From Nitrospirota bacterium (GTDB lineage Bacteria; Nitrospirota; Thermodesulfovibrionia; Thermodesulfovibrionales; UBA1546), in the NCBI GenBank assembly GCA_016208915.1, contig JACQXE010000049.1, positions 1 to 40,503 of the forward strand: a stretch of 40,503 bases of DNA. The letters run 5' to 3'. Positions 5,205 through 38,492 of this stretch are shown here, one piece after another; positions within the stretch are counted from its first letter, which is position 1, and every line of letters begins with the position of its first letter. The notes beneath the pieces are model-generated. The model did not search any database. It worked only from the letters and a program-made list of their open reading frames with translations, and was not told where the DNA came from. The position numbers and the translations under genes were made by a program.

Positions 5205-5273
5205 CTTTATTTTCTAAGTGTTTAGGGATTGAATTGCGTGCAAAAAAGCCGCTCAAATACCATACCCTGCATT

Positions 5274-6905
5274 ATGACTGAAAATATGGTGTTATTACTT
5301 TTAAAACCCAAGTTTTTATCATTAAAGAACTCAATCAGCGCTAAGGTTGTAATTAGAAGGCTTCCTTTTATTGCGATAGGAATAGGATTCTGGATCCTGT
5401 TTTATATTGGAACATATAAGGTTCTCTCATATATAAGAGAAATCGATTTTTTTGGTGAGATGCTCTCAAGAAAGCTTTTCTCGATGACATTCTTCAGTCT
5501 TTTCGGATTCTTAATCTTAAGTAACATAATTACTGCAATCTCTTCTTTCTACCTCTCAAAGGATATCCCGTTTCTTCTCTCAAAGCCTGTAGAGATCAGG
5601 GATATTATGAGATTGAAAACACCTGAATCTTTCATGAACTCATCCTGGATGGTCCTGTTGTTTATACCGCCTGTATTTATAGCATACGGTGTGAGCTATA
5701 CTGCACCGGCAGGTTATTATTTGTTGGTGTTTGGATGTTTCCTCCTATTCAGCCTTATCACTGCAGGCATTGGTATCCCAATAGCCCATATTCTTACAAG
5801 GCTTTTCCCTGCCAAAAGCGCAAGGAATGTGCTCCTTGGAATGGGCATGTTTATGCTCTATTTTGTGATAAAAGGTCTTATACCTCAGGACATAAGCACA
5901 CCAGAAGGTTTTATAAATTCCATAATGTTATTCAGGACTGAGTCGCCACTTCTGCCAAGTTATTGGATTACTGAAGCGGTTTCACCAATGCTGAGGGGGA
6001 GGAGTGCAGATATTTTTTATGTATTAGTGCTTTTGAATAACAGTGTGTTCTTTCTTCTTCTCTCTGAAATCATAGGATTACGATTTTACAGGACGAATAT
6101 CGAGAGGCTTCAGCCATCAGGCCAGAGAATCAGCAGGGGATTTTTTGAAAGATATTATCCTCAAAAAAATACCACCATTTTTTATAAGGATATAAAGATA
6201 TTCTTCCGCGACACAGGTCAGTGGTCTCAGGTATTTATCATAGTAGCGCTCATTATGGTTTATATCTATAATTTCAAGTCTATTCCTGTCAACGCACTTT
6301 CCGAATTCCCTTTCATAAGAGAGCTTATGATTCTCGTTAATCTGGTTATGTCGGGGCTTGTTCTATCTGCGGTTGCCGCAAGGTTTATTTACACATCCGT
6401 AAGCCTTGAGGGAGAGGCATTCTGGCTTATAAGGACATCACCAATAGATATAAAAAGATTTTTATGGTCAAAGTTTTTTTATGGGTGCATTCCTGTGACT
6501 CTCTTGATGCTGCTTCTTGTTTTCCTGACGAATCTTGCTATAAATGTTGATGGAATTTTGATGTGTGTATCTTTGGTGACAGTTTTGATGCTTAGTATCT
6601 CTGTAAGCGGGTTGGGGACAGGCTTTGGTGCTATCTATCCAAAGTTCAAATATGAAAACATCGCCTCTGTCTCTATGAGTCTTGGAGGCATGACATTTAT
6701 GCTCATTGCCTTCAGCATTGTGATTATTACATTATCGCTTGAGGCGTGGATTTTTTATGTCTATAAGCTAAAGGGAGTAATGGATTTTTCAGGGAAGATT
6801 CAGATTGCCTTATGTCTTGTGCTAATATTGCTTGTCAACGCAGTTGCCTTTTATCTGCCGATCAGGGTTGGGGAAAAGAAGATAGATGGTATACAGGATA
6901 AATAA
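5274..6905 (+). CDS. ABC-2-like multi-spanning membrane protein (putative exporter permease)
   Basis: About 543 residues with roughly 10-12 hydrophobic segments in two halves and a polar loop between (around RGFFERYYPQKNTTIFYKDI, then KIFFRDTGQWSQ). This resembles a family of large putative ABC export permeases. No ATP-binding partner is encoded beside it, so the ATPase must come from elsewhere or the assignment is loose. The start is uncertain: TTG 5229, ATG 5274 and ATG 5286 are all in frame and none has a clear ribosome binding site. The family-like beginning MVLLLLKPKFLSLKNS favours one of the two ATGs. Substrate unknown. Confidence 0.65.
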   Translation: MTENMVLLLLKPKFLSLKNSISAKVVIRRLPFIAIGIGFWILFYIGTYKVLSYIREIDFFGEMLSRKLFSMTFFSLFGFLILSNIITAISSFYLSKDIPFLLSKPVEIRDIMRLKTPESFMNSSWMVLLFIPPVFIAYGVSYTAPAGYYLLVFGCFLLFSLITAGIGIPIAHILTRLFPAKSARNVLLGMGMFMLYFVIKGLIPQDISTPEGFINSIMLFRTESPLLPSYWITEAVSPMLRGRSADIFYVLVLLNNSVFFLLLSEIIGLRFYRTNIERLQPSGQRISRGFFERYYPQKNTTIFYKDIKIFFRDTGQWSQVFIIVALIMVYIYNFKSIPVNALSEFPFIRELMILVNLVMSGLVLSAVAARFIYTSVSLEGEAFWLIRTSPIDIKRFLWSKFFYGCIPVTLLMLLLVFLTNLAINVDGILMCVSLVTVLMLSISVSGLGTGFGAIYPKFKYENIASVSMSLGGMTFMLIAFSIVIITLSLEAWIFYVYKLKGVMDFSGKIQIALCLVLILLVNAVAFYLPIRVGEKKIDGIQDK

Positions 6906-6960
6906 GTCTTAGTTTACAGTTCTATTTTCAAGTATTCTTTTCCTTCTGCCTGCAATGAGC

Positions 6961-7027
6961 GGTTAACGTCTGCGGCGGAAAAGAAGCCCTTAAGGTTTGG
7001 GCATAAGTCTTTTGCAACGTGTTAAAC
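6961..7027 (-). other. attC-like recombination site closing the toxin-antitoxin cassette
   Basis: On the minus strand, R'' is GTTTAAC (7027-7021) and R' is GTTAACC (6967-6961, one mismatch to GTTRRRY). The inner stem pairs TCTTTT (7008-7013) with AAAAGA (6979-6984) and continues with GCCC (6986-6989)/GGGC (6999-7002). The site is 67 nt, within the attC size range. R'' matches the opening box of its own cassette at 7580-7574. The weaker R' suggests an array edge or decay. Confidence 0.6.
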
Positions 7028-7043
7028 GACATCACCCCCTGCT

Positions 7044-7265
7044 TTATAAACTAACAACTTCAACTTCCAATTTTTGTTTAACTTTATGCGTGGATTCAAG
7101 AAGACTGTCTATCCCATCAAGTACTTTTGCGTGAAAATATCTCTCACCGCATTCAGAGCAAACTTCAGCCTCAACATTCTCAACTATATACAACCTCCGA
7201 TGAAGCCAATGTTGTCTTTTGACTTTCTTTTTTGCTGTTTGTCCTCCGCAAAATTCACAAATCAT
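7044..7265 (-). CDS. YgiT-type zinc-finger protein (probable antitoxin)
   Basis: A 73-residue protein with the YgiT/MqsA-type zinc finger: C3xxC6 in MICEFCGG and C36xxC39 in VCSECGE, followed by a helical tail (KVLDGIDSLLESTHKVKQKL) that would contact the toxin. Such proteins are antitoxins and autorepressors. An AGGAGG site precedes the ATG. The gene lies 9 nt after a DUF4258 gene, with which this type is commonly paired, and before the attC-like site that closes the cassette. It lacks the separate helix-turn-helix domain of full MqsA, so repressor activity is uncertain. Confidence 0.8.
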   Translation of the reverse strand: MICEFCGGQTAKKKVKRQHWLHRRLYIVENVEAEVCSECGERYFHAKVLDGIDSLLESTHKVKQKLEVEVVSL

Positions 7266-7274
7266 AATTTCCTC

Positions 7275-7547
7275 CTATAAAGCATAGGCCGTTATTACAA
7301 TAAGATTGCCATGCTCTTTAAATCTGCATACAACATGAATAATTCTATCATCTCTTGCACTGCCTTCAATTCTATATCTCGTTCCACGTTTGTCTTCTGT
7401 TAGTTTCTTCTCTATTCGTCCTTTAAGTATAGCATTTTCAATATCTACTCTTTCCAACTCGTCATCCAGCATTTCTTCTTCTGCATGATCGGAAAGGTAA
7501 TAGTCTTTATCTATAACCTTTTGTCTAATTATTTGTAATGTCTTCAT
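7275..7547 (-). CDS. DUF4258 protein (probable toxin of a toxin-antitoxin pair)
   Basis: A 90-residue protein recognisable as DUF4258: an N-terminal helix with DKDYYLSDHAEEEMLDDELE, then ENAILKGRIEKK and strands with RYRIEGSARDDRIIHVVCRF, ending LIVITAYAL. The conserved His in LSDHAEEEM and the central Arg are typical. DUF4258 genes are usually found next to YgiT-type antitoxins, as here, and are thought to be RelE/MqsR-like toxins. It is the first gene of its cassette, with a 33-nt leader after the GTTAAAC box at 7580-7574. The ribosome binding site is weak. RNase activity is inferred from context only. Confidence 0.78.
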   Translation of the reverse strand: MKTLQIIRQKVIDKDYYLSDHAEEEMLDDELERVDIENAILKGRIEKKLTEDKRGTRYRIEGSARDDRIIHVVCRFKEHGNLIVITAYAL

Positions 7548-7573
7548 TCAACTTATTCTCAGGGGGCGATGTT

Positions 7574-7640
7574 GTTTAACGTGCTTGGCTAAAAGAAGTG
7601 CGTAGCATTTGGACATTAATCTTTTAGCCTGTTGTTAGAT
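7574..7640 (-). other. attC-like recombination site closing the cytochrome cassette
   Basis: On the minus strand, R'' is ATCTAAC (7640-7634), then AACA, then GGCTAAAAGA (7629-7620), a 23-nt centre, TCTTTTAGCC (7596-7587, perfect 10-bp complement), AAGCAC, and R' GTTAAAC (7580-7574). R''/R' fit RYYYAAC/GTTRRRY exactly. Sequence flanking R'' (7641-7655) is the exact inverse of the cassette's start (8188-8202). The unequal spacers, 4 and 6 nt, fit unpaired spacers of folded attC sites. Confidence 0.78.
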
Positions 7641-7682
7641 GAAATTGCCGCCCAACAGCACGTTTGCAGAAGAATTGTACAT

Positions 7683-8156
7683 CTACTCTTTTAGGGCCTT
7701 GATAGCCTTTAAGTCCTCTTCGGTCATTTCTGTTTTCTTTTTTAAAGTCCAACCGCCAACCCACTTTTTGATTATTTCTAACATTGCAGCCCTTTCAGAA
7801 TCAGTCTTTCCAAGATATTGGTGCATGTTACCAGACTTGCCATCTTTTGTGTTCTTCCCATCATCAAGCCTCCTCATTAAAGCACCTGCATCTTTTCCAT
7901 CTACAAATATCATCAGGTTTTCGTAAGTGTCCATCCTTGGTCCTTTCATCTTTTTCTTGAACCCTTCCTTATCCTTTTTAAACTCATCGATTGTTGGAGA
8001 ATCGCTGCCATGACATGACAGACACTTTTCAGACATTATCTGTTTAACATTTTTCTCGTATGTTACTGCACTTTTTTCGGCAGCAACTGAATACCCCACA
8101 ACAACAATTAGTGAGAGGAATAAAAATACACTCACATTTGCAATTACTTTTAACAT
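7683..8156 (-). CDS. Monohaem c-type cytochrome-like protein
   Basis: A 157-residue exported protein. It has a signal peptide (MLKVIANVSVFLFLSLIVVV, cleavage near GYSVAA), then one haem-attachment motif C-L-S-C-H in MSEKCLSCHG. A distal methionine in GNMHQYLG is a possible axial ligand. The C-terminus is Lys/Glu-rich. It should carry electrons or bind haem in the periplasm. I take ATG 8156 because AAGGAGGAG lies just upstream; an ATG at 8174 falls before that site. The gene is the only one in its integron-like cassette, with a 53-nt leader after the GTTAGAT box. Confidence 0.82.
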   Translation of the reverse strand: MLKVIANVSVFLFLSLIVVVGYSVAAEKSAVTYEKNVKQIMSEKCLSCHGSDSPTIDEFKKDKEGFKKKMKGPRMDTYENLMIFVDGKDAGALMRRLDDGKNTKDGKSGNMHQYLGKTDSERAAMLEIIKKWVGGWTLKKKTEMTEEDLKAIKALKE

Positions 8157-8209
8157 TCTTGCTCCTCCTTTCATTTAATCAAATTTTTTGGGCGGCAATT
8201 TCATCTAAC

Positions 8210-8325
8210 TACTTCATAGACGAACTATGTCGCTTTTTGTCCCGATTTGGGATGATAGACGACATATTGCGGATATGCTGACTCTGGCAGATATCCGATT
8301 TTCCCCTTTCTGCTGACAATAAAAG
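8210..8325 (-). other. attI-like region between the recombinase gene and the first cassette
   Basis: This 116-nt gap sits where an integron's attI would be, ending at the GTTAGAT box (8209-8203 on the minus strand). It holds direct copies of ATAGACGA (8216-8223 and 8255-8262), an inverted pair TATGTCG/CGACATA (8226-8232/8260-8266) and a hairpin GGATATGC/GCAGATATCC (8271-8278/8287-8296). Direct repeats plus an imperfect core recall attI, but no known attI sequence is recognised. A decayed attC remains possible. Confidence 0.4.
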
Positions 8326-9189
8326 TCACTTATCACCTTCCTTTGAAACGCTTAAGCTGTCTAACGGGCTCCGTATTTTTCCAAGACTCTTTGTGCTTAC
8401 ATGTGTATAAATTTCAGTTGTCTTGCTGTGTGCATGACCAAGCAACTCCTGTATGTAGCGCAAATCCACACCGTTTTCAAGCAGATGTGTCGCAAAGCTG
8501 TGGCGTAATGTATGCACTGAGATGTCTTTCTTAGTGTTTGTCTGTGTACATGCATGTTCAAGAATGTGTTGAACGGTTCTGGTCGAAATGTACCTATCCC
8601 TCCGTGCTCCTTCAAACAGCCATTTTTGTGGCTTGTACTCACGCCAGTATTTTCTGAGGACATTAAGGGCTGTCTCTGACAGAATCGTATATCTATCCTT
8701 TCTCCCCTTTGCACCTTTGACATGAATCAACATTCTTTTACTGTCAATGTCTTCAGCTTTCATTTTTACAACCTCTCCAACCCTCAAGCCAGCAGAATAG
8801 ATAAGCATAAGTATTGCCCTGTGTTTTATATTATCTACCGCTGAGAGAATTTTCGCAACTTCTTCTTTGCTTAAAACTACAGGAAGTTTCTTGTCTTTGC
8901 GTGGTCTTTTGACTTCATAGACAAATTTTCTCTTAAGCATGCTGCCGTAGTAAAATTTCAAAGCGTTTATCGCCTGATTTAATGTGGCTGTTGCTGATTG
9001 TTTTTCTTCTGCGAGGTATAGGAGATAATCTTTTAGGTCGTTATCATTGACTTCTGACGGCTGCTTTTTAACAAAGTCGAGGAAATCTCTATTGTAATAA
9101 AGATAGCCTTTGACAGTCCGATAGCTGTATTTTTGTGAGAGGAGTTCACGGCGGAGGTCTTCGAAACTGTGATGAGATTGCGTCGGCAT
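8326..9189 (-). CDS. Tyrosine recombinase / integrase, XerC/D-like
   Basis: 287 residues from ATG 9189. There is a SAM-like core-binding domain (about 8-90) and a catalytic domain with all active-site residues: Arg136 (AGLRVGE), Lys161 (KGAKGRKDR), His226-x-x-Arg229 (VHTLRHSFATH), His252 (LLGHAHS) and nucleophile Tyr261 (EIYTHV). The C-terminus KIRSPLDSL resembles IntI proteins, but the extra helix region IntI carries before the HxxR box is absent. It lies beside an attC-like cassette array transcribed in the same direction. The open frame continues upstream to 9462 and encodes a conserved-looking N-terminal domain, so ATG 9189, which sits inside a palindromic repeat, is probably not the native start. 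Confidence 0.88.
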   Translation of the reverse strand: MPTQSHHSFEDLRRELLSQKYSYRTVKGYLYYNRDFLDFVKKQPSEVNDNDLKDYLLYLAEEKQSATATLNQAINALKFYYGSMLKRKFVYEVKRPRKDKKLPVVLSKEEVAKILSAVDNIKHRAILMLIYSAGLRVGEVVKMKAEDIDSKRMLIHVKGAKGRKDRYTILSETALNVLRKYWREYKPQKWLFEGARRDRYISTRTVQHILEHACTQTNTKKDISVHTLRHSFATHLLENGVDLRYIQELLGHAHSKTTEIYTHVSTKSLGKIRSPLDSLSVSKEGDK

Positions 9190-9207
9190 TTTGTGCCTCG
9201 CAATGAC
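9171..9207 (-). repeat. Palindromic repeat embedded in the recombinase reading frame
   Basis: Minus strand: GTCATTGCGAGGCA, CAAAA, TGCCGACGCAAT, CTCATC. The arms ATTGCG/CGCAAT and GGCA/TGCC form a hairpin of the kind common as dispersed intergenic repeats (compare 10136-10165). Here it is translated as VIARHKMPTQSHH, joining the N-terminal and recombinase domains, and it supplies the ATG at 9189. Confidence 0.6.
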
Positions 9208-9462
9208 AGAAGTAGAGAGTCGTGTTTGCAGGGCAGGGTCTATATGGATTTCTTCGCCCTTGAAAACCTCTAAGATTTTCTCTAATGTCCCATTTGTATT
9301 CGGAAAGCTCCAGTGTTTTTCTTTTGGATGCCATTTGTGGCCGAAGATGGTTTTTATCTTCTGGACAAGGGTAGGGTTATATCGGAATCTAACAATTATC
9401 CTTTCAGAGTTGTCTTTGTTTAAAGTTACCCTGGTTCCATAGGAAACTATAGCCAGTTCACC
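9190..9462 (-). other. In-frame N-terminal extension of the recombinase, no standard start codon
   Basis: The frame is open from a TAA at 9465-9463 into the recombinase and reads SERIIVRFRYNPTLVQKIKT, then KWHPKEKHWSFPNTNGTLEK, a small domain I associate with longer members (about 370-390 aa) of this integrase family. No ATG, GTG or TTG occurs before 9189. The best-placed codon is ATA 9450-9448, 8 nt after AAGGTG, which would give a 374-residue protein. Either ATA is used or the start was lost by mutation. The region overlaps the end of the macrodomain gene. Confidence 0.6.
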
Positions 9463-10006
9463 TTATATTTTTCAAGTTCTCAAATTCCCTTTTAAAATGC
9501 TCCATTGTATTATCATCATAAACACAGAACTCAACGACTTCCAGAGAGGTTTTCTGTGTTTTCAGAAAATTTGCTGACTCAGTAACCAATATCTTTGCAC
9601 ACCTGTCTTTTGGAAAGCCAAATATCCCTGAGCTTATTGCAGGCATAGAAATGCTTTTCAGTCCTTTTCCTGTTGCGAGCTTCAGGGTGTTTATCACTGC
9701 ATTCTTCAGCTTATTATCCTCGTTTCCCTCTCCCATTTGCGGGCCAACTGTATGAATCACAAATTTAGCCGTAAGTTTGCCAGCGCTTGTTATCACTGCT
9801 GTTCCAACAGGAGTGTAGCCAATCTTATCACTTTCATCCTGAATAGTTTTGCCGCCTTTTCTTACAATAGCTCCGGCAACGCCGCCTCCATGTTGAAGAT
9901 GTGAATTTGCTGCATTCACGATTGCATCAACATCTCTGTCAGTAATGTCACCCTTAACAATGCGTAATGTTTTATTTGATATTTTATGTTCGGTTATTAG
10001 TTTCAT
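9458..10006 (-). CDS. Macrodomain protein (ADP-ribose / O-acetyl-ADP-ribose hydrolase-like)
   Basis: A 182-residue single macrodomain. Signatures are KGDITDRDVDAIVNAANSHL (ADP-ribose binding, with the conserved N-A-A-N), HGGGVAGAIVRKGG (phosphate loop) and PAISSGIFGFPKDRC near the C-terminus. The bacterial MacroD/YmdB group removes ADP-ribose from acidic residues or deacetylates O-acetyl-ADP-ribose. The catalytic Asn and the glycine loop are present. GGAGGC precedes the ATG. Its stop lies at the beginning of the open frame that leads into the recombinase, suggesting joint transcription. Confidence 0.88.
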   Translation of the reverse strand: MKLITEHKISNKTLRIVKGDITDRDVDAIVNAANSHLQHGGGVAGAIVRKGGKTIQDESDKIGYTPVGTAVITSAGKLTAKFVIHTVGPQMGEGNEDNKLKNAVINTLKLATGKGLKSISMPAISSGIFGFPKDRCAKILVTESANFLKTQKTSLEVVEFCVYDDNTMEHFKREFENLKNIR

Positions 10007-10028: not shown

Positions 10029-10165
10029 TCATTCCCGCTTGTCCGCCTCGGGCGGATTCGCCGAGAAGAATCGGGGATCGCGGAAATCCATTAGGTTTTT
10101 TCTGTTATTCCCGCTTGTCGGGAATCCTTCCCTGAAGAGGGATTGCGGACAAGCCGCAATGACAA
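10029..10165 (+). repeat. REP-like palindromic repeats upstream of nfeD
   Basis: Two units of the widespread 'TCATTCCCGCTTGTC' type, at 10029-10083 and 10112-10165, each with internal complementarity (CCGCCTCGGGCGG; ATTCCCGCTTGTCGGGAAT; ATTGCGGACAAGCCGCAAT). They fill the gap between the macrodomain gene and the nfeD promoter. An open frame runs through them into nfeD but looks non-coding there. Confidence 0.55.
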
Positions 10166-10209
10166 ACAGGGTTGCCTTACTAACAACCGTATTAGTATAT
10201 AAAAGTTTG

Positions 10210-38243: not shown

Positions 38244-38410
38244 AAACATTAGTGAGGAATAATCCCATGAAGAAGACCGGCATATCAAAATGAATAAGTC
38301 TAAATGCCTGCCGCTTAATCCAGCCCTACTTATAAAATTATAGAGAGGTTATAGTGTTCGAGCGGCTTATTTTGCCGATAGTCAGGCAGTATAAAATATT
38401 AGGAATCAAG

Positions 38411-38470
38411 AGGCAAAATCCTCGGAGGCTGAAAGGCCGACCTGCCTGCCGGCAGGGAATGAGCGAGAAT
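38411..38470 (-). repeat. Dispersed intergenic repeat, copy 2 (inverted)
   Basis: Reading the minus strand gives TCGCTCATTC, then CCTGCCGGCAGGCAGGTCGG, then CCTCCGAGG and ATTTTGCC, matching the copy at 5159-5204 in its outer blocks with a different central palindrome. It occupies the 249-nt gap (38244-38492) between the hybrid kinase and tilS, which shows no gene I can support. Confidence 0.5.
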
Positions 38471-38492
38471 ACTATAGCCTCTCCTGGATTCT

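Follow-up and report, generated by a model that had tools for sequence, protein, structure and literature searches.

In integrons a tyrosine recombinase (IntI) stands beside an insertion platform followed by single-gene cassettes in one orientation, each closed by an attC site with R''/R' cores (NNNTAAC...G|TTANNN) and an inner inverted repeat, and each carrying its own R' complement; the cargo is variable and rich in toxin-antitoxin genes, and clusters lacking an integrase also occur. Pairing of the attC arms spans 7 nt, or 9-11 when extended (PMC2727003). The additional domain of IntI (I2) is regarded as the innovation through which folded single-stranded attC came within reach of a Xer-like enzyme (PMC4792948), and it is the feature by which integron software identifies IntI (PMC9024848). 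A second kind of array, the rAID arrays of Bacteroidales, is recognised by a recombinase and low-GC co-oriented genes, and one paper describing such arrays makes no mention of integrons, attC or palindromes (PMC12247911). Our comparison covers open-access papers, and an earlier description elsewhere is possible. Here we analyse a window of 40,503 nt, the entire 40.5-kb contig JACQXE010000049.1 from a metagenome-assembled genome (MAG) of a Nitrospirota bacterium, in which an integron-like layout is seen beside a tyrosine recombinase without I2. Judging from sequence, we put at roughly 80% the probability that the window holds a small array belonging to an integron-like gene-capture system in which the adjoining I2-less recombinase serves as integrase.

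On the minus strand the order is recombinase (9462-8326), 116-nt platform, cassette 1, its site, cassette 2 and a second site, both cassettes lying within 8209-6961 (Table 1). The first bases of each cassette, GTTA and the 17-18 nt after it, are the reverse complement of the stretch directly preceding its own closing site. Cassette 1 starts at 8209 with GTTAGATGAAATTGCCGCCCAA and closes at 7640 with a perfect reverse complement (22/22); cassette 2 starts at 7580 and closes at 7027, with complementarity over 19/21 bp. Arms of the same cassette match at 23/24 and 19/24 positions, against 13/24 and 15/24 in the crossed pairs, and the longest comparable repeat in 100 shuffles of the window was 9-14 bp. 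An earlier note, made by a model from the letters of the window, had described two attC-like sites with their boxes and an own-cassette complementarity of 22 bp (perfect) and 21 bp (two mismatches), and both descriptions hold. It had also called this complementarity a known integron hallmark, which is not the case, as arms of 21-22 bp are not known there; they set the window system apart. The paired inner arms that it reported are found in the first site (10 bp), but in the second the inner stem is imperfect (left half CGTTGCAAAAG, right half CTTTTCCGCCG) and only 5 bp pair. The two halves of this chimeric stem fit different site subtypes, CGTTGCAAAAG on the left and CTTTTCCGCC on the right, and the stem looks as though two sites had recombined within their shared central stretch. 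The conserved platform (8210-8325) and an unmatched third opening arm (ca. 6967-6944) had both been missed. We found no closing partner for this third arm (6944-6967), which is probably a truncated cassette or a scar at the array end; arms nearly identical to it open intact cassettes in three other loci (L070, L073, and L093).

Table 1. Features of the array and its flanks in the window (R1, covariance model of the sites)
Feature	Coordinates	Strand	Details
Tyrosine recombinase without the IntI additional (I2) domain	8326..9462	-	SAM-like and catalytic domains from ATG 9189 (287 aa)
attI-like platform (putative)	8210..8325	-	Between recombinase stop and first cassette core; repeated palindromic half-sites (CATATGTCG...CGACATA, TTCGTCTATGAA), then GAAGTA|GTTA
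Opening arm, cassette 1	8188..8209	-	G|TTAGATGAAATTGCCGCCCAA
Cassette 1 gene, secreted PccH-type c cytochrome	7683..8174	-	CxxCH haem motif; PF22297, E 2.7e-45
Closing arm, cassette 1	7634..7655	-	Perfect complement of 8188-8209
attC-like site closing cassette 1	7574..7640	-	R'' ATCTAAC, 10-bp inner stem, R' GTTAAAC; R1 E 6.5e-13 (training sequence)
Opening arm, cassette 2	7560..7580	-	G|TTAAACAACATCGCCCCCTG
Cassette 2 gene a, DUF4258 protein	7275..7547	-	Toxin-like partner; PF14076, E 7.7e-17
Cassette 2 gene b, YgiT-type zinc finger	7044..7265	-	MqsA-like antitoxin N-terminus; TIGR03831, 51 bits (cut-off 20.2)
Closing arm, cassette 2	7021..7041	-	Complementary to 7560-7580, 2 mismatches
attC-like site closing cassette 2	6961..7027	-	Inner stem chimeric, only 5 bp pair; R1 E 5.5e-13 (training sequence)
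Unmatched third opening arm	6944..6967	-	GTTAACCGCTCATTGCAGGCAGAA; just past last site
Flanking macro-domain gene	9458..10006	-	Marks insertion point
Flanking ABC-permease-like membrane gene	5229..6905	+	Marks other side of insertion

Seventeen sites were aligned as bottom strands. The layout is NNNTAAC, a 5-nt spacer, an 11-bp inner stem, GAAG, optional hairpins around TTTGG, the returning stem, a 1-nt spacer and GTTANNN. Covariation in the stem is strong: paired cells make up 91.8% (74.0% in shuffles) and there are 58 two-sided changes (17 in shuffles); 0 of 500 shuffles were as high, and slid controls gave 32-51%. The sites have the R''/R' cores and foldable inner repeat of attC, but they depart from integron sites in having outer arms of 16-24 bp (7-11 in integrons), spacers of 1 nt and 5 nt in place of two unpaired spacers, and no extrahelical bases; there is one 4-5-nt bulge, a continuous 11-bp inner stem and no symmetric unpaired central spacer. 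A further difference is that the bottom strand is favoured via G.T wobbles. Among 27 cassettes, the deviations between outer arms are mostly an A in the opening arm and a G in the complement of the closing arm, at position 11 in 20 of the 27 and at position 12 in four, a difference that makes an A.C mismatch on the top strand and a G.T wobble on the bottom strand. Transitions were bottom-wobble in 36 cases and top-wobble in 10 (p 1.6e-4, which is indicative, the cassettes being partly interdependent). The first window cassette, with its perfect arm match, has no wobble. Linear sites folded singly gave weak z-scores (ca. -1) because they lack their own opening arm, and folding of the circular form cured this problem: the values were -20 to -37 kcal/mol, the bottom strand being the stabler one in 13/16 (mean 3.0 kcal/mol). 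In multi-cassette arrays, the pairing of own-cassette arms exceeds cross pairing.

These observations bear on whether an ordinary double-strand recombinase, Xer- or transposon-like, could be at work, with the arms as mere binding sites. The dif-like palindromes of the platform would fit such an enzyme, as would the relatives of the recombinase that accompany IS91-family transposases. Binding sites, however, have no need of cassette-specific arms, yet here ends 0.5-3 kb apart complement each other in a way that differs by cassette, and the arm mismatches are biased to wobble on one strand. We consider this explanation improbable. What we infer instead is a gene-capture reaction in which the neighbouring recombinase would be the catalyst and a single folded strand its substrate. 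In the circular cassette one site would unite, without a break, the closing arm, inner inverted repeat and the cassette's own opening arm, and the bottom strand of this site would fold to one long hairpin (outer stem ca. 20 bp, 4-5-nt bulge, inner stem ca. 11 bp, variable top). The recombinase would join this hairpin to the double-stranded platform beside its own gene, with the exchange presumably at G|TTA, and cassette excision would be the reverse reaction. The one-sided 4-5-nt bulge and the wobble-coded arms may replace the partner features of I2.

The arrangement recurs well beyond the window. A scan of a genome collection with a profile of the recombinase family gave 30 loci, to which loci from related genomes were added; about 20 distinct loci have the recombinase, a palindromic platform and then co-oriented cassettes, under taxon labels as distant as Nitrospirota, Nitrospinota, Deltaproteobacteria, Marinimicrobia, WOR-3, Ratteibacteria and a spirochaete. 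The distance from the recombinase stop to the first core is mostly 105-118 nt, and 30-82 nt in a few loci (overall about 30-130). The platforms hold two core-like palindromes with arms that differ by locus (e.g., TATCCGAA...TTCGGATA in L056 and TATCAGCA...TGCTGATA in L073) and end in (A)AACRA|GTTA. Twenty platforms contained 23 palindromes where 2.1 were expected; the window platform has none that reaches the threshold of this count. RNAalifold gave no usable consensus on the platform alignment because the palindromes shift between loci. A putative attI-type platform with a G|TT core adjoining the integrase is in this way conserved in about 20 loci; it differs from that of integrons in its paired palindromes and its position downstream of the recombinase. 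The cassettes that follow differ at every locus, and the cargo checked includes GmrSD-type and DNA methylase genes, HicA, a PemK-like toxin, DUF2283 and a CsgG-like lipoprotein. The earlier note had proposed looking in related genomes for the same recombinase beside differing cassettes, and that is what is found there: the same distance upstream, the same kind of site, other genes. As far as sequence can tell, the link between recombinase and sites is no accident. Some loci are reduced. In L178 (1860-2140) a recombinase remnant with an internal deletion, its N-terminal domain fused to the C-terminus, precedes a platform and cassettes that are intact, an arrangement resembling a non-autonomous element. 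Palindromic platform-like stretches also precede cassettes without any recombinase in L170 (4310-4450, reverse strand), L177 (6260-6402) and L179 (3210-3349), and L177 has an additional platform-like copy upstream.

Would the canonical integron machinery account for these sites? The window could be a cluster of attC sites lacking an integron integrase (CALIN), with cassettes that a canonical IntI would mobilise in trans, and the recombinase would then be a neighbour by chance. The source genome does encode an intact canonical IntI (365 bits) on another contig (C64:89120-90055), together with partial copies, and clusters with the same sites and no recombinase exist, two of them in this very genome. 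However, the sites follow the recombinase and not IntI. Among 396 Nitrospirota genomes, the covariance model R1 found sites in 14/14 that have a family recombinase of at least 55% identity and in 35/382 others; without the four training genomes, the figures are 10/10 and 35/382 (p 1.5e-10). In a 61-genome set, canonical IntI showed no association with the sites (8/17 vs 15/44, p 0.39). R1, which matched further non-training sites with E-values down to 1e-16, found nothing on a class 1 integron, and none of 30 canonical IntI genes has an R1 site at a distance of up to 1.5 kb. Around the IntI of the source genome no arm pairs turned up. The recurrence of the recombinase-platform-cassette order across phyla at a fixed spacing, the lack of extrahelical bases and outer arms much longer than those published for attC also speak against IntI in trans, an explanation that we regard as quite unlikely. 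The related proposal of the earlier note, that a cassette cluster had come to lie next to an integrase unrelated to it, is disfavoured likewise, as the recombinase predicts sites genome-wide and IntI does not.

In the source genome (G000), R1 detects six sites, two in the window, two on C51 and two on C74. The clusters on the latter contigs (C51:13400-14026 and C74:48828-49557) have the same site type with no family recombinase adjoining, and the C51 cargo includes a DUF2283 protein. Besides the intact canonical IntI there is a partial copy at C14:37798-38451, and C-terminal IntI pieces at the ends of C61 and C63 suggest a repeated intI that broke the assembly. A strict RYYYAAC/GTTRRRY scan around the canonical IntI revealed no arrays and therefore, within the limits of the scan, that IntI looks solitary. 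A search of viral contigs for the exact attC pattern gave no hits.

Comparison with relatives also indicates movement. The flanking macro-domain gene has 15 matches outside the source genome, in 14 relatives, and in 11 of the 15 the short stretch concerned also contains a permease homologue, with no family recombinase detected, at a spacing of tens of bp in most and larger in one. These 11 loci are empty sites; at the other four the permease is not in the stretch examined. Another genome (G001) has cassettes where the window has none. Two sister genomes (G004 and G011), with flanking DNA 95.8% identical, carry different toxin-antitoxin cassettes at the array end, and two contigs of a single MAG (L090 and L093) share a platform stretch that is 98% identical and is followed by different cassettes. 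Cassettes turn over between relatives, as in integrons. Fixed genes at homologous loci had been named in the earlier note as part of what would refute its interpretation; swapped cassettes and empty sites were seen in their place.

The recombinase itself has the catalytic residues, as noted earlier, and lacks the IntI extra segment: IntI has 133 residues between GxRxxE and HxxR, whereas the family, like its IS91-associated relatives, has 92 (ca. 41 fewer). The Bacteroidota relatives also lack the insertion. Aligned to IntI4 (2a3v), the window recombinase shows a break at this point (25 residues vs 67). An extra N-terminal domain, conserved in the family, reaches upstream to 9462 with no ATG, GTG or TTG start in the window; translation may start at ATG 9189, which would keep both recombinase domains intact. 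The XerA-type NCBIfam model NF040815 ('site-specific tyrosine recombinase/integron integrase') scores 240.7 bits, above its curated cut-off of 220, and the integron integrase model TIGR02249 scores 209 bits, below its cut-off of 265 and split into two pieces. In a tree that left out archaeal XerA rows, IntI forms one clade (support 100/100) with the family outside it, likewise the Bacteroidota and IS91-associated relatives, whose branching order the tree does not fix. By these sequence measures the enzyme is not an IntI. It could in principle be a true IntI with a secondary loss of the additional domain: IntI4 and archaeal Xer are the best matches of the predicted fold (mean pLDDT 78, pTM 0.49), IntI4 coming first, archaeal XerA and IntI4 are about equally close (a near tie) in sequence score, and the SPLD-like C-terminus and G|TTA-type core are shared by the enzyme and IntI. 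But the family falls outside the IntI clade, NCBIfam favours XerA_Arch over the integron integrase, and the insertion is also missing from the IS91-associated and Bacteroidota relatives; we regard such a derived integron as very unlikely. Of the earlier suggestion that a XerC/D-like enzyme handles folded sites, the non-IntI part is strongly favoured; the enzyme is not specifically XerC/D-like, with XerA and IntI4 about level. Recombinase and cassettes are indeed co-oriented, but this is no novelty, as Treponema integrons share it (PMC3607928); those reversed integrons have a true IntI (PMC3607928) with the domain that the window recombinase lacks.

Several points weigh against our interpretation. 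All the Nitrospirota-type loci come from metagenome assemblies; the canonical IntI on C64 could act in trans; 12 of 50 related genomes without the recombinase still have sites, so that recombinase-less clusters are common; and some of these loci also served to train R1, a point that the tests leaving out training genomes address. The window copy may also be partly decayed, given the recombinase N-terminal extension without a normal start codon and the chimeric inner stem of the last site. Chance association, IntI in trans and secondary loss of I2 have been weighed above and were judged less likely.

Among the closest described systems are the rAID arrays, which have an I2-less recombinase of the same broad family (ca. 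43% identical) and, like the window, co-oriented small genes and intergenic motifs (PMC12247911). Their cargo consists of immunity genes, in contrast to the cytochrome c and DUF4258/YgiT genes of the window, where there is no orphan immunity gene. Behind recombinases of 42-43% identity that likewise have no IntI domain, Bacteroidota plasmids carry co-oriented genes with own-cassette arms at their borders. In a Parabacteroides plasmid (L189), four of four consecutive genes self-pair (best of 24 permutations); it carries immunity-type genes and fits the description of rAID arrays (PMC12247911). In a Chryseobacterium plasmid (L187) four cassettes self-pair, and an A/G asymmetry is seen again at nearly the same position. 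In a Rufibacter tibetensis plasmid (L192, 6246-11092) a relative of the recombinase is followed by an array of small genes in one orientation, with a hairpin-bearing intergenic site that R1 matches weakly (E 0.005-0.8). The tyrosine recombinases associated with IS91 (e.g., beside ISVsa3) have the same fold, no I2 and a similar SPLD C-terminus, and part of their sequence is up to 54% identical, but they are partnered with an IS91 transposase and not with cassette arrays.

On balance we lean towards the view that there is a second lineage of cassette capture, extending from Nitrospirota to Bacteroidota and including the rAID arrays as one form, in which I2-less recombinases would act on single-stranded folded sites. 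It would be either older than the gain of I2 by IntI or of parallel origin, and I2 would be dispensable for cassette recombination at folded sites. A widespread I2-less system with integron logic would make the origin of integrons directly testable, through the question of what in the site stands in for I2 and the extrahelical bases. Its existence would also suggest that numerous arrays with toxin-antitoxin, restriction and defence genes are being missed or filed as integrase-less clusters, and would offer a common mechanism for the immunity-gene arrays (rAID) of gut Bacteroidales.

As for minor features, an Rfam scan of the locus gave no match, and a promoter scan of the array gave 7 hits against 4.1 expected (sd 1.9), not clearly above expectation. 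Inverted repeats (TTCCCGCTTGTC...) resembling repetitive extragenic palindromes or miniature inverted-repeat transposable elements lie at 10029-10170, between the macro gene and the next gene. Finally, a short element of ca. 129 bp with palindromic ends (AGGACGTAGTATTT...AAATACTATGTCCT) is present twice in the source genome, at 38352-38475 of the window and at L164:5488-5615, the two copies being 81% identical.

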